Shown here piece after piece: positions 49,243-55,714 of a stretch of 64,000 bases of DNA. How positions within the stretch are numbered: the first letter of the stretch is position 1; each line of letters starts with the position of its first letter. A program made the position numbers and the translations under genes. The notes under the pieces were generated by a model. That model did no database searches. It was not told where the DNA came from and was given only the letters and a program-made list of their open reading frames with translations. The stretch comes from Arcobacter venerupis (GTDB lineage Bacteria > Campylobacterota > Campylobacteria > Campylobacterales > Arcobacteraceae), in contig NZ_CP053840.1 in NCBI RefSeq assembly GCF_013201665.1, positions 1,364,001 through 1,428,000 on the forward strand. Direction: 5' to 3'.

Positions 49243-50647
49243 TATTGCAATTGTAGGTTCTGGAATTGGTGGAAGTTTGATTGCTGCACTAAATAAAAAC
49301 AAAGATATTGTTGTTTTTGAAAAAGACCATAATCTTGGAGGTTGTGCTTCAACTTTTAAAAGATTTGGACACTTTTTTAACACAGGTGCTACAACTTTTG
49401 TAGGATATGAGGATGGTCATATTATTAAAAATATTTTTGATAAAGTTGGTTTAAAGCCTGATATTTTACAAAGTAAAATTGCCATTAGAAATATCCAAGG
49501 AAATAAAAAAGTAGATAGAATTCAAAATTTTGAAGAGTTTTTAAGCCAATTAAATAGTGTTTATTATCACAAAAATAATAGAGCTTTTTGGACAAAAATA
49601 AAAGAGATTGATGAAAAGTTTTGGAAATTAAAACATATCTATTTTGCAAAATATTCTTTAAAAGCTTTTTTTAAATCTTCAATTTTTGTAGCTGAACTTT
49701 TAAAAGAGTTTAAAACAGATTTATTAATTAGTGCTCAAAAATTTATAAATGATACTTTGCCAAATATTAGTGATGAATATAGAGCTTTTATTGATTCACA
49801 GCTTTTAATCACACTTCAAACAACATCGAAAAATGCCACACTATTATCAATGAGTTTAGGATTAGCATATCCATTTCATAAGGTTTTTTATGTAAATGGT
49901 GGAATGGGAAAACTAATTGAAGATTTATTAAAAGATGTAAAAGTAAATAAAAATGAACAAGTAATTTCTGTTATAAAAAAAGAGAAACAATATCTTTTAA
50001 AAACCACAAAAGATGAATATTTATGTAATAAAGTAGTTTTAAACTCAACTATTTTTGATAGCTCAAAACTCTTTATAGATGAAAATATAAAATCATATTT
50101 TCAAGGTTTTAAATTTGGTGACCAAAGTGCTTTTGTTGTTTATGTGAAATTAGATATAAAAAAAGAATTTTTACACCACTATCAAATAGTTTTAAAAGAA
50201 AATATTCCAAACTGCATATCAAACTCTTTTTTTGTCTCTTTTAGTGATGTAAATGATGAAAAAATGTCAAAAAATGGACTAAGTCTCACAATATCAACCC
50301 ACTCAAAAGCAATTTTCTGGGAAGCTTTAACAAAAGAGGAGTATGAAGAAAAAAAAGAGCAAACAAAAGAGTTTATTATTCAAGAGTTTTTGAAATATTT
50401 TGACACTATAAAAAAAGAAAATATCACATCAAATTTTGCAGCAACTTCAAAAACTTTTTACTCTTTTATAAATAGAACAAATTGTGGTGGAAAACCAATA
50501 AATATAAAATCAGCCTTTAGTTTGCCGAGTTGTAACACACCATTTGAGGGTTTATACAATGTTGGAGATACAGTTTTTGCAGGGCAAGGCTGGCCTGGGA
50601 TTGCTGTTGGAGTTGATGTTTTAAATAAGGAATTAAATAAAATATAA
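49229..50647 (+). CDS. Phytoene-desaturase/CrtI-like FAD-dependent oxidoreductase
   Basis: A 472-residue enzyme with an N-terminal dinucleotide-binding motif GSGIGGSLIAAL, the FAD ribose glutamate in VVFEKDHNLGGCAS, and the C-terminal FAD-contact region NVGDTVFAGQGWPGIAVG. It resembles CrtI/CrtO and retinol saturase proteins. I chose the ATG at 49229 (MKNIDIAIVGSG) inside the end of the photolyase gene. No other carotenoid genes are near. Co-occurrence with a photolyase suggests a light- or photo-oxidation-related role, but the substrate is unknown. Confidence 0.82.
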   Translation: MKNIDIAIVGSGIGGSLIAALNKNKDIVVFEKDHNLGGCASTFKRFGHFFNTGATTFVGYEDGHIIKNIFDKVGLKPDILQSKIAIRNIQGNKKVDRIQNFEEFLSQLNSVYYHKNNRAFWTKIKEIDEKFWKLKHIYFAKYSLKAFFKSSIFVAELLKEFKTDLLISAQKFINDTLPNISDEYRAFIDSQLLITLQTTSKNATLLSMSLGLAYPFHKVFYVNGGMGKLIEDLLKDVKVNKNEQVISVIKKEKQYLLKTTKDEYLCNKVVLNSTIFDSSKLFIDENIKSYFQGFKFGDQSAFVVYVKLDIKKEFLHHYQIVLKENIPNCISNSFFVSFSDVNDEKMSKNGLSLTISTHSKAIFWEALTKEEYEEKKEQTKEFIIQEFLKYFDTIKKENITSNFAATSKTFYSFINRTNCGGKPINIKSAFSLPSCNTPFEGLYNVGDTVFAGQGWPGIAVGVDVLNKELNKI

Positions 50648-50676
50648 TTGACAAAATAAATATTAAGTATTATAAT
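50648..50676 (+). promoter_or_regulatory. Consensus sigma-70 promoter of the AAA/DUF4143 gene
   Basis: TTGACA at 50648-50653, a 17-base spacer, and TATAAT at 50671-50676: both boxes match consensus exactly. The -35 box begins at the base after the previous gene's stop codon. Exact -35 boxes are rare in this AT-rich group. Confidence 0.85.
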
Positions 50677-50689
50677 ACTTAATATTTAT
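50656..50689. promoter_or_regulatory. Perfect 34-bp palindrome overlapping the promoter (candidate operator)
   Basis: Seventeen bases on each side of the centre 50672/50673 are exactly complementary; the half-site reads ATAAATATTAAGTATTA. It covers the spacer, the -10 box and the expected transcription start, which is the placement of a repressor operator. It lacks the G/C-rich stem and T run of a terminator. Confidence 0.75.
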
Positions 50690-50708
50690 AAATTATAAGG
50701 AGTATATC

Positions 50709-51959
50709 TTGAATAATGTTTTAATTTCGCAGAATAAACATTGGGAAAAAAGATATGAAAATCTTTACAAAAGAGAAGTTTTTCAAAAATTAGTAAAAAA
50801 TCTTTCTCTAAAACATATACAAGTTTTACAAGGTATTAGAAGAAGTGGAAAATCTTCTTTATTTAAACTTCTTATAAATGAACTTTGTTTAAATACAGAC
50901 CCTATGGAAATTTTATATATAAATCTTGATGACCCTTTTTTTATGAAATATTCAAATGAACCAACAGGATTTTATGAAATAATCCAAACAGCAAAAAAAC
51001 TTACCCAAAAAAATATAAAATATCTTTTTTTAGATGAAGTTCAAGCTATAAATGGTTGGGAAAGATTTGTAAAAAGTGTTTATGATAGTGAAGAATTTAT
51101 TAAGATATTTATTACAGGTTCCAACTCTTCACTTTTAAATACGCAGTTTGCAACACTTTTAAGTGGACGATATATTTCAACAAAAATTTATCCACTTAGT
51201 TTTTCTGAAATACTTGAAATAAATGGCATTGATAATTTTTTAAAACTTAATAAAGAACTTCCAAAAGTTTTAAAACTTGTAGATGATATGATGAATTATG
51301 GTTCATTTGTGGAAGTTTATGAGTTGGATGATGAATTTAAAAGAGAAGTTTTAAGCACTTATTATGAAACCATTTTATTAAAAGATTGTGTTGCAAATAA
51401 TCAAATTCGAGATATAAAGAGTTTTAAAGAACTTGGTTTTTATGCTTTGACAAATTTAACTTCTTTATATTCGTATATTTCTTTGTCAAAAGTATTAAAA
51501 ATCAATGATAAATCTATAAAAGATTATATTTCTTTTTTAGAAAATTCGTATCTTTTTAGTGAGTTGAAACTTTTTTCATATTCATTAAAAGAGCAAATTA
51601 ATAATAAAAAGAAATTATATTTGAGTGATAATGGTTTTATTAGTTTAGGATATGCTTTTTCTTCAAATTATGGAAAGTTATTGGAAAATCTTGTTTTTAC
51701 TGAACTTCAAAAAGCAGATTTTGAGATTTTTTATTTTAATAGTGATTTCGAATGTGATTTTATAGCAAAAAAAGCTAATAAGATTATAGCTATTCAAGTT
51801 TGTTATAGTTTAACTGAAGAGAATAAAAAAAGAGAAATAAATGCATTTTTAAAACTCCCTTTTAATGTGGATGAAAAATATATAATTACCTATAATCAAA
51901 GGGATAAAATTGATGATATAGAGGTTATAAGTTTTTGGGAATATTTTGCAAAATTTTAA
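50709..51959 (+). CDS. AAA-type ATPase with DUF4143 domain
   Basis: A 416-residue protein. The N-terminal P-loop domain has Walker A GIRRSGKSS at about residues 44-52 and Walker B YLFLDEVQ near 114-121, with the sensor ITGSNSSLL. The C-terminal part is DUF4143, ending in a nuclease-like fold pattern (ENLVFTELQKADFEIFYF ... ECDFIAKKANKIIAIQV). These proteins are widespread and strain-variable; their function is not established. Translation starts at a TTG with AAGGAG five bases before it. Its promoter is covered by a perfect palindrome. Confidence 0.87.
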   Translation: MNNVLISQNKHWEKRYENLYKREVFQKLVKNLSLKHIQVLQGIRRSGKSSLFKLLINELCLNTDPMEILYINLDDPFFMKYSNEPTGFYEIIQTAKKLTQKNIKYLFLDEVQAINGWERFVKSVYDSEEFIKIFITGSNSSLLNTQFATLLSGRYISTKIYPLSFSEILEINGIDNFLKLNKELPKVLKLVDDMMNYGSFVEVYELDDEFKREVLSTYYETILLKDCVANNQIRDIKSFKELGFYALTNLTSLYSYISLSKVLKINDKSIKDYISFLENSYLFSELKLFSYSLKEQINNKKKLYLSDNGFISLGYAFSSNYGKLLENLVFTELQKADFEIFYFNSDFECDFIAKKANKIIAIQVCYSLTEENKKREINAFLKLPFNVDEKYIITYNQRDKIDDIEVISFWEYFAKF

Positions 51960-51992
51960 AATAGTAAAGATAAAAGTTTGAAAGGATTATAT

Positions 51993-54011
51993 TTGGAAGA
52001 AGAAAAATTATATGAATGTGAAATTTGTAATAAAAAGTATCCTAAAAAAGAGTATCTTTATTCAAAATATGAAAATAAGTGTATTTTACATTGTGAAAAA
52101 GATATTTGGTTTGATTTAATAGATGGAAAAAAAGATTGGACTAAATCTGAAGAAAATATAAAATATTTTTGGTCGGAAATTAGAAAATATATTTTAAATA
52201 CACTTAAAGATGAAGAATATAAAGTGGAACAATATTATATAAGTTTAACAAATGTAATTTTCCCAAAATTTGAAGAACTCTATGAGGATACTTATGAAGA
52301 AGGACTTGGATATTGGCGTTGTGATGATTGGTATCATAATTTTTGTGATGAAATTATAACAAATAGTGAATTCCCAAGTAATGATTTAAAAAAAATTTCA
52401 GGATTTAATTTTAGTAATTCAATATTTTTAGATGTTGTAGATTTTACTAATTATGAATTTGAAGGACTTGTATTCAATAATACAGTATTTATAGAAGAGT
52501 GTAAAATTTCAAATTCTAAAATAATAAATGTTTCTTTTAAAGAAACTATTTTCCAAAAAGCTACATTATTTGAAAATTCAACAATAAATTTTTTTTCTTA
52601 CCAAAAAGATTTTGAAAATTGTGAATTTTATAAAGAATTAACTTTTGATAACATTATTTTTAATAATCAACATAAGAAATTAGATTTAGATTTTAAAAAT
52701 ACTAAGTTTAAAGAGTTAAATATTTCAAATACAACTTTTGAAAAAGGTTTAAGATTTTATAAAGAATCAAGTATAAAATCTTTAAATATTAAGAATTGTA
52801 AAATCAAAGATTTACTTTTGGCAGCAGAAGTATCTATTATAGATTTAGATTCAAATAAAAAAGAGATAGATAGATTTGTAATCAAACCAAATAATCTCAA
52901 AAGCTTAACAATTTCTAATTCTCTAATAAATAAAGATTTTTTATTAAAGGATGAAGTGAATAATAGTAGATCTAATTTAGATTTGATTGATTTAAAAGAA
53001 TCAACTTTTAAAGGAAAAGCAAAAATACAATTTTATAATTGCATAAAAGATGCAAATTTTTATAATACTAAATTTGAAGATTTAGCAGACTTTTATAGGA
53101 CTAAATTTAAAAAAGTAAATTTTGAAAGAACAGATTTTAAAAACATAGCTGTATTTAGTGAAGCAGAATTCCATTGTGATGTAGATTTTAAATATACAAA
53201 ATTCTTAGGAACATCAATTTTTAGAGATATGGTTATAACTGGAAAACTAAATCTACGAGATACTATTTTTAAAGAAGATGCTAATTTTTTAGATATTACT
53301 TCAAAATCAAGAAAAGTTTATGATGAAGAAAAAAGAGATTATTTTTATATTGGCGAGTTAGAAGATATAAAAGTTTCAAATAGAGAAACAGCAAGAGTTA
53401 TCAAAAACTTTTTTGATAGTTCAAATAATATTATTGAAGCAAATAGATTTTATAAATTGGAAATGAAAGAAAGAGAAGACGAATTAGAAAAAAGTTTTGA
53501 TAAAGGTAAAAATATTTTTGAATACTTAATTTTTAAATTTCATGGGTTAAGCTCTAATTATTCTCAAAATCCATTATTGGCATTTTTTTGGATATACCTA
53601 TTTTCTATGTTTTATTCTTTTTTTGAATTTAATAGTAAAAAGCAAGAATACAGTGATAAATTTCAATTTTCATATTTTGAAATAATATTTGAGAAGATTT
53701 CTTTAAATCAGGATTTATTTGGTTTCTTAATTGTTATTGGAACAATATTTATAATATGTGTAATATTTTCTTTAATTACTAAATTTAAAGAAGTGGGACT
53801 TTGTTCAATTTTCTTAATTTTTATTACTATTTTATATATTATTTACACTAAAGATTATTGTTTATCAATAGTTTCAAATAGTTTTAATCCTTTTTCAATT
53901 ATGACAGGTAAAGATTCTCTAAATATAATTACATTGATTTATAAAATAGTAATTGCATATTTGATTTATCAGTTTATTATTTCAATCAGACAAAATACAA
54001 GAAGGAAATAA
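51993..54011 (+). CDS. Pentapeptide-repeat-like membrane protein with N-terminal zinc-ribbon-like motif
   Basis: A 672-residue protein. The N-terminus has CEIC and CILHC, a possible metal site. The centre (about residues 120-440) shows F/L-x-x-T/S-x-F periodicity (FKNTKFKELNISNTTF, FKYTKFLGTSIF), a loose form of pentapeptide beta-helix. Then comes IEANRFYKLEMKEREDELEKS, which commonly links such helices to membrane domains, and four hydrophobic helices at about 525-660. AAAGGA six bases before the TTG at 51993 supports that start; a TTG at 51978 is also in frame. The stop touches the start of the LytS-like gene, so it may be a partner of that system. Confidence 0.72.
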   Translation: MEEEKLYECEICNKKYPKKEYLYSKYENKCILHCEKDIWFDLIDGKKDWTKSEENIKYFWSEIRKYILNTLKDEEYKVEQYYISLTNVIFPKFEELYEDTYEEGLGYWRCDDWYHNFCDEIITNSEFPSNDLKKISGFNFSNSIFLDVVDFTNYEFEGLVFNNTVFIEECKISNSKIINVSFKETIFQKATLFENSTINFFSYQKDFENCEFYKELTFDNIIFNNQHKKLDLDFKNTKFKELNISNTTFEKGLRFYKESSIKSLNIKNCKIKDLLLAAEVSIIDLDSNKKEIDRFVIKPNNLKSLTISNSLINKDFLLKDEVNNSRSNLDLIDLKESTFKGKAKIQFYNCIKDANFYNTKFEDLADFYRTKFKKVNFERTDFKNIAVFSEAEFHCDVDFKYTKFLGTSIFRDMVITGKLNLRDTIFKEDANFLDITSKSRKVYDEEKRDYFYIGELEDIKVSNRETARVIKNFFDSSNNIIEANRFYKLEMKEREDELEKSFDKGKNIFEYLIFKFHGLSSNYSQNPLLAFFWIYLFSMFYSFFEFNSKKQEYSDKFQFSYFEIIFEKISLNQDLFGFLIVIGTIFIICVIFSLITKFKEVGLCSIFLIFITILYIIYTKDYCLSIVSNSFNPFSIMTGKDSLNIITLIYKIVIAYLIYQFIISIRQNTRRK

Positions 54012-55007
54012 ATGCAAACAGTTGAACTAAAAATCGCACCAAAAGATTGGCTTTATATCATAATTATTGGGGCATTTTTTGGTTTTTTTATCTCTTTGTG
54101 TTTCTATTTTTTAAGTGATGATTTACAAAATATTTCAACTATTATTTTTAGTACAAGCAGTGCCATTTCTATTTCATTGTTTGCATTTTTTTTAATCACT
54201 ATTTCCAATAAATTTATACTTCCAAAGGTAAATAAGAAATTCTGGTATTTGATTAGTTTTATTTTCTCTTTTTTAGCTGGTTTTCTAGGATTTAGTTTTT
54301 CTTTTATACTTTTTTCTTTTAGTGATTTTAAAATTTTATATATTATCTCACCATTTTGGCACTATATAGCTGTTACAATTGGTTTTCTGACCTTTTTAGT
54401 TGGTTTGATTTTGCATCAATTTATCTCTATGAAATACAAAAATGAAGAGATAAAAACGCAAATTTTAGAGACAAAACTAAAAGCTTTAGAAAATGAGCTA
54501 AATCCTCACTTTTTATTTAATGCTTTAAATTCAGTTTCTGAGTTGATTTATCAAGACCAGAAAAAAGCTGAAAATGCAGTGATTGAAATATCAAAATTTT
54601 TGCGAAATGCCATAAATAAAGAGAGTTTAATCTCTCTTGAAACTGAACTTTCTATGGTGAAAACTTATGTAAATATTGAAAATGTAAGATTTGATGGAAA
54701 AATTGTTTTAAATATTGAAGATTTTAATGAATATAAAAATATAAAAATACCAAAATTCTCAATTCAACTTTTGGTTGAAAATGCCATAAAACATGGATAT
54801 TTAGGAAAAACTCTGAATATTGATATAAACTTTTCAAAAGACAAAATAAGAGTACAAAATGATGGTAAAATAGCTAATATTGTGAAATTTGGAACGGGTT
54901 TATCAAATCTTCAAAAAAGATTGGAACTTCAAAAAGTTGGCAATTTATCGTTTGAAAAGTTAGATGATAAGATGTTATTTGTAATAGAATTAAAGGATAA
55001 AAATTGA
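54012..55007 (+). CDS. LytS-type sensor histidine kinase
   Basis: A 331-residue inner-membrane kinase of the His_kinase (LytS/YehU) family. Four hydrophobic helices occupy about residues 14-140, then a coiled segment leads to the phospho-acceptor in ELNPHFLFNALN (H at about 166), and an ATPase domain with LLVENAIKHGYLG and GTGLSNLQKRLEL. It begins at the base after the pentapeptide-like gene's stop and overlaps the LytTR regulator gene by four bases, so all three are probably one unit. Confidence 0.92.
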   Translation: MQTVELKIAPKDWLYIIIIGAFFGFFISLCFYFLSDDLQNISTIIFSTSSAISISLFAFFLITISNKFILPKVNKKFWYLISFIFSFLAGFLGFSFSFILFSFSDFKILYIISPFWHYIAVTIGFLTFLVGLILHQFISMKYKNEEIKTQILETKLKALENELNPHFLFNALNSVSELIYQDQKKAENAVIEISKFLRNAINKESLISLETELSMVKTYVNIENVRFDGKIVLNIEDFNEYKNIKIPKFSIQLLVENAIKHGYLGKTLNIDINFSKDKIRVQNDGKIANIVKFGTGLSNLQKRLELQKVGNLSFEKLDDKMLFVIELKDKN

Positions 55008-55714
55008 AAATAATGATTGTTGATGATGAGAGTTTAGCTTTAAGCAGATTAAAAAGGTTATTAAATGAAAATGGAATTGAAGATATAACAGCTTTTGATA
55101 ATCCAATAGATGCTCTAAAAGAGATAACAAAAACAAAATTTGATGCAGTTTTTTTGGATATTTCAATGCCAAATATTTCGGGACTTGAGCTTGCTGATTC
55201 TATCATGCAAATTGAGCCAAAAACATTTATTATATTTCAAACAGCTTATTCAGAGTTTGCACTTGAAGCTTATAAAAGTGGTGGAATGGGATATTTAGTA
55301 AAACCAATAGAGTCAAATGACATAAAAAATATCCTAGATAAAATTAAAAGTTTTGCAGTTTCATCTAAAGATGAATCAAAAAAAATCTTAGGAAAAAGAG
55401 GAGATAAACTTTATTTGATTGATATAAATGATATTTATTATATAAAAGCTGATTTAGATGAAGTTATCATCAAAATAAAAGAAGCAGATGCTTATGTAAG
55501 ACGAAAAATAGGGGATTTAGAAACACTTTTAAGTGATAAAAACTTCTTTAGAGTTCACAGATCTTATATTGTAAATGTTGATAAAATCAAATCTATGCGA
55601 AGTGTGGAACAATCAAAACTTGAAATATCTTTTGATGGAATTGCAGAAATTGTGACAAGTTCAAAAGAGGGTGCTAAAGATTTTAGAGAGTACATTGAGC
55701 GAAGAAGTTTATAA
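55004..55714 (+). CDS. LytTR-family response regulator
   Basis: A 236-residue regulator with a receiver domain (MIVDDE at the start, phospho-acceptor D52 in VFLDISMP) and a C-terminal LytTR DNA-binding domain (about 125-230; YLIDINDIYYIKADLDEV, FFRVHRSYIVNVDKI). The TTG at 55004 overlaps the kinase stop by four bases; an in-frame ATG at 55013 is a fallback. LytTR proteins bind paired direct repeats and act with LytS-type kinases. The target genes are not evident; the upstream membrane protein is a candidate. Confidence 0.92.
   Translation: MKIMIVDDESLALSRLKRLLNENGIEDITAFDNPIDALKEITKTKFDAVFLDISMPNISGLELADSIMQIEPKTFIIFQTAYSEFALEAYKSGGMGYLVKPIESNDIKNILDKIKSFAVSSKDESKKILGKRGDKLYLIDINDIYYIKADLDEVIIKIKEADAYVRRKIGDLETLLSDKNFFRVHRSYIVNVDKIKSMRSVEQSKLEISFDGIAEIVTSSKEGAKDFREYIERRSL

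Follow-up and report, generated by a model that had tools for sequence, protein, structure and literature searches.

A conserved dyad on the promoter of a mobile PDC-S01 ATPase gene in Arcobacter venerupis: a candidate operator for self-repression

We report on a single-gene unit in a 64-kb stretch of the Arcobacter venerupis genome (hereafter the window, to which all coordinates refer; 27% G+C, host genome 3.2 Mb). The gene, at 50709..51959 on the forward strand, starts with a TTG codon at 50709 and encodes a 416-residue AAA_14/DUF4143 ATPase, as indicated by matches to domain profiles (AAA_14, 1.4e-33; DUF4143, 1.6e-18). The protein also matches the PADLOC PDC-S01 model PDLC04787 over its full length (residues 18-414 on model positions 9-407 of 412, E 1.3e-108), and so do the relatives L041, L044 and L048. 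Upstream, on the same strand, an AAGGAG ribosome-binding site (50697..50702; its GGA is conserved in the orthologue upstreams) lies 6 bases before the start codon, and an exact -35 hexamer, TTGACA (50648..50653), is separated by a 17-bp spacer from an exact -10 box, TATAAT (50671..50676). Over the spacer and the -10 box lies a perfect 34-bp palindrome at 50656..50689 (17+17 without loop; arms 50656-50672 and 50673-50689, 100% complementary), which includes the forward-strand half-sites TATTAAGTA (left, 50661..50669) and TACTTAATA (right, 50676..50684). Judging from sigma-70 geometry, transcription is expected to start at 50683..50684 (forward strand), approximately 7 nt past the -10 box and in the right arm. 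The arrangement given in the initial annotation, i.e. TTGACA-17-TATAAT with the palindrome over it, was thus confirmed at 50648-50676 and 50656-50689.

The window has no other zero-loop perfect palindrome with arms of at least 8. In 100 dinucleotide-Markov simulations arms reached 13 at most, and an arm of 17 is expected by chance approximately 9e-5 times per 64 kb, or 0.0045 times per 3.2 Mb. The exact TTGACA-17-TATAAT combination (12/12) also occurs once in the window, either strand counted. All 100 simulations gave at least one zero-loop palindrome with arms of at least 8, and the window outside 50656-50689 has none; perfect palindromes may be avoided by this genome. A second promoter-like pair, TTTAAA-17-TATAAT (10/12), is present at 50620-50648 and ends where the main -35 box begins; transcripts from it would bear the entire palindrome as a 5' hairpin.

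Homology to relatives without the ATPase gene stops at the stop codon of an upstream FAD oxidoreductase gene (approximately 50645-50651) and restarts at a histidine kinase gene (approximately 54000). The slot between these two genes (window 50648-54011) holds the ATPase gene and a gene for a pentapeptide-repeat protein. In relatives, where the names of the slot genes were read from the sequences without a domain scan, it is empty (L063, L064) or is filled by a VapBC-like pair that has a repeat of its own, ACTTATAAGT (L061, L065, L069), by an HD-domain protein (L059, L060) or by another gene (L066). In G004 the VapBC-like pair takes the position of the window's ATPase gene. Over the 31 genomes compared in the genus, the oxidoreductase gene is common and the AAA gene is not, in keeping with the earlier description of the latter as strain-variable. 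By these comparisons the space between oxidoreductase and kinase is a cargo slot, or hotspot, in the genus. The TTGACA hexamer sits on the junction of the inserted module; since the unit starts on its -35 box, the strong promoter arose at insertion or came with it.

The pentapeptide-repeat protein (51978..54011, forward strand) has a hydrophobic C-terminal part; its gene lies 18 bp behind the ATPase gene, with which it is possibly co-transcribed, and is not conserved with it. The same genome encodes two more relatives of this protein (G000 2646583 and 575013), and the genus has others that are truncated or divergent. No gene consistently accompanies the ATPase gene among the orthologue loci. 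Three of these loci (L047, L048 and L050) have direct repeats of 22-59 bp on either side of the gene, such as an insertion that duplicates the adjoining DNA would leave.

The promoter comparison covered the upstreams of 19 orthologues, the window included, whose proteins are >60% identical and whose flanks are unrelated. The orthologues come from many families (13 loci from genome contigs and more from whole genomes) and are mostly 60-77% identical. In 16 of the 19 (window included; L099 is cut off) the distance from the beginning of the -10 box to the start codon is exactly 38 nt. The dyad centre of the window, which falls on the -10 box, is the symmetry centre of the whole group as well, with 9.95 of 17 positions paired, compared to 4.8-7.4 at shifted centres. 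The 19 upstreams have TATWTCGTA-N6-TACGARATA as their consensus dyad; the -10 box occupies its middle, and transcription is expected to start within its right half. From this consensus the half-sites of the window depart symmetrically, at two dyad positions; this change counts as one event only, since covariation between the arms over the 19 upstreams was not significant (p = 0.13-0.15). Left half-sites are weak in L095, L102 and L103, and single-sequence palindrome scores for the upstreams of most relatives are not above those of shuffled sequences, so the evidence comes from conservation across relatives. Perfect 34-bp symmetry is absent from the orthologues, but the 24-bp dyad is conserved, and the former is an extreme form of the latter; the outer palindrome bases show no conservation in the orthologues and may have arisen by chance. 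Likewise, the designation as a full-consensus promoter holds for the copy in the window, where both boxes are exact, but not for the orthologues, among which the -35 box is not conserved; TTGACA is peculiar to the window copy and a few others. By these alignments the palindrome of the window represents a conserved operator in diverged form, and the idea of an operator that overlaps the promoter gains support from a dyad fixed on the -10 box.

These comparisons bear on whether the inverted repeat instead acts as RNA, as a 5' hairpin or a terminator in transcripts from the upstream gene. The AU hairpin folds better than shuffled sequences (-13.8 kcal/mol, z -3.4), and the second promoter-like pair, which ends at 50648, would allow some transcripts to hold both arms. 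However, the overlapping promoter would transcribe the right arm only, there is neither a T tract nor a terminator or Rfam match, and what the orthologues keep is the -10 box and the half-sites, not perfect pairing; we therefore regard an RNA function as highly improbable. An intrinsic terminator was considered separately and rejected, the stem being almost all A+T instead of a G+C-rich stem followed by a T run.

Conservation around the gene is confined to the proximal ~75 bp. Orthologue pairs from different genomes (283 pairs) have a mean local score of 19.4 in the promoter-proximal 75 bp, compared to 7.8 farther upstream and 8.4 downstream, which is background. By contrast, 13 pairs of paralogues residing in one genome score 10.7, the same level as unrelated pairs (10.8). 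Orthologues across hosts hence share the operator and paralogues of the same genome differ, i.e. the site follows the gene and not the host. The genome-wide search for the half-site that had been proposed earlier was carried out on both strands of the 3.2-Mb genome and gave an exact match at this one place only, while near matches (4 forward, 16 reverse) are not in excess of a reversed-pattern control (15 and 15). In neither the genome nor the phylum is the consensus dyad enriched, and it is no commoner than its reversed control. A degenerate scan of viral contigs gave no relative of the ATPase, and none of the viral stretches that match the operator patterns encodes one.

A host regulator encoded elsewhere could bind the palindrome, with the ATPase gene as one member of its regulon. 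No dedicated repressor gene adjoins the unit, and a LytTR response regulator is encoded 3 kb downstream (55004-55714). Such a regulator would, however, yield the opposite of what is seen for orthologues and paralogues, since operators differ between paralogues of the same genome and are common to orthologues in different families. Neither do a palindrome that is unique in the genome and half-sites that are not enriched resemble a regulon, and the LytTR gene pair is present even in relatives with an empty slot. We consider this explanation unlikely, and the distant factor offered in the initial annotation finds no backing in a site that moves with its gene and is not repeated in the genome.

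A site that moves with its gene might also be the end of a mobile unit that serves insertion, its overlap with the promoter being secondary. The cargo hotspot, the direct repeats that flank three of the orthologue loci, and the extent of conservation, which begins near the dyad and ends at the stop codon, agree with this. On the other hand, the 3' end of the unit has no repeat to match it in the window and in most loci, and the flanking repeats are situated beyond the dyad and vary from locus to locus. The position of the dyad is in addition fixed on the -10 box and, at 38 nt, relative to the start codon, neither of which transposition needs. We find an insertion function very unlikely. A MITE or transposon end was rejected, as no direct-repeat partner above shuffles is present in the 300 bp behind the window gene and the half-site is found nowhere else in the genome.

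The statement that no repressor gene lies next to the ATPase gene is correct insofar as no separate one was found, but the gene itself has an HTH-like segment. This stretch, SLSKVLKINDKSIKDYISFLEN (residues 256-285; 51474..51563, forward strand), was recognised by eye in alignments, lies between the ATPase part and the nuclease-like end, and is a predicted DNA-binding part; an HMM search with the segment gave no HTH family at significance and a PDB sequence search gave nothing useful. In an unbiased scan of the protein, identity in residues 256-285 and in residues 16-30 was the best predictor of operator similarity over and above overall identity, with equally high scores and a modest effect (partial rho ~0.2, rows non-independent). 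The C-terminal motif region E...ECDF...IQVCY (residues 322-367; 51672..51809, forward strand), read in the alignment, is one that we take to have a nuclease-like fold. As in most clades, the window protein is without the usual lysine of E-x-K (IQVCY), and clade G7 has EIKS (L041); from these motifs, most of the family may be catalytically inactive or function in another way.

Operators are clade-specific. Clade G7, 26-30% identical and PDC-S01 by PADLOC, has the same half-site by the same -10 box, CGTA-N-TANNNT, which in its strict form is present in 3/3 G7 members of the tree set, 4/18 members of clade A and 0/47 members of clades B-F. Its half-site is repeated in direct copies, three or four of them, exactly 22 bp apart, in 6/6 members. 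The other clades, which like these were recovered as groups in the FastTree tree, have promoter repeats of their own, as seen by eye: GGAATACATTCC directly past the -10 box in clade B, GTATTATAC/AAGTATACTT in clade C and TATCCTT-N-AAGGATA, twice, in clade D. Some upstreams of plasmid relatives from archaea and other phyla hold repeats (L169, L170, L171), which are too few for a claim. Upstream of L170, from a Deferribacterota plasmid, is CCTTGACAATAAGGA, a repeat identical to that of clade D in Campylobacterota. In a distant clade of the same family (L037-L041, L139, L140) three to four half-sites of the form TTTCGTAAT are found upstream, exactly 22 bp apart, and L040 has six in two groups.

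Together our data suggest that the palindrome is probably the operator of a self-contained mobile unit with a single gene, whose ATPase represses its own promoter. The unit would comprise promoter, operator, ribosome-binding site and one PDC-S01 ATPase gene (AAA_14, HTH-like segment and DUF4143). The ATPase, as two copies or as a higher oligomer, would use its HTH segment to bind both half-sites and would come to lie over the -10 box and the start site, such that RNA polymerase would be unable to open the promoter and expression would be kept low. If the ATPase were drawn away or changed in state, perhaps on phage infection or by foreign DNA, the promoter would be freed and expression would rise. 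Of the two options in the initial annotation, that of a protein controlling its own gene is thereby favoured on inferential grounds.

The conservation among orthologues could, however, also serve an activator: the operator may be real and the protein may activate, or help to activate, its own promoter, or may bind just to sense the state of the DNA. An HTH assignment is silent on the sign of regulation, and -35 boxes that are poorly conserved in the orthologues resemble those of promoters that need help. Against this, the dyad covers the -10 box and the start site, and proteins bound there usually repress; furthermore, the full consensus promoter of the window copy needs no activator. To activation or mere sensing we assign a low probability, and self-repression is the reading that we carry further. 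It is possible, and put forward tentatively, that PDC-S01 ATPases in general are their own repressors, each clade having its own promoter-overlapping operator that is read by the HTH of the ATPase. Effector and sensor-repressor would then be one polypeptide, and which DNA the protein recognises could be told from the operator sequence.

The genes of PDC-S01 rank with the most frequent of the suspected defence genes. Should the ATPase recognise a specific DNA site, a binding assay and a reporter for the releasing signal would be at hand, and the HTH segment would be linked to a DNA code that differs between clades. With self-control, a possibly costly gene could also change hosts and remain independent of the regulators there. 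Palindromic autorepression is already known; in the literature searched, no single-gene defence candidate is described whose ATPase acts as the repressor.

PDC-S01 is a PADLOC single-gene candidate for phage defence made up of AAA_14/DUF4143 (COG1373-type) ATPases, of which the window gene is a member by PDLC04787. One study ranks PDC-S01 fourth among the defences of prokaryotes by how common they are, and calls PDCs unvalidated (PMC12988326); the passages of the literature searched hold no mention of an operator or self-regulation for it. Autoregulated toxin-antitoxin operons such as VapBC resemble the window unit in being small and mobile and in having inverted repeats that overlap the promoter. 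They differ in that the window unit is one gene, with effector and presumed repressor in the same polypeptide, an ATPase with a nuclease-like part, and no antitoxin. A toxin-antitoxin module was accordingly rejected, there being a single gene instead of two adjacent ones and the downstream DNA differing in all orthologue loci. The WYL-type proteins BrxR and CapW offer a likeness in that a defence locus is silenced by a DNA-binding protein at its promoter, which for the window is a proposal. In those systems the repressor is a separate gene (PMC9122588, PMC9122589), whereas none was found for the window unit. Finally, TT_P0211 of Thermus thermophilus has the same domain set (AAA_14, DUF4143, HTH motifs), a likeness at the level of the domains described. 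No operator is described for it, and its RNA is 6.6-fold up in the wild type with plasmid compared to without, only with Argonaute present (PMC4406477). By analogy, this rise with a plasmid hints that expression in this family can be inducible.
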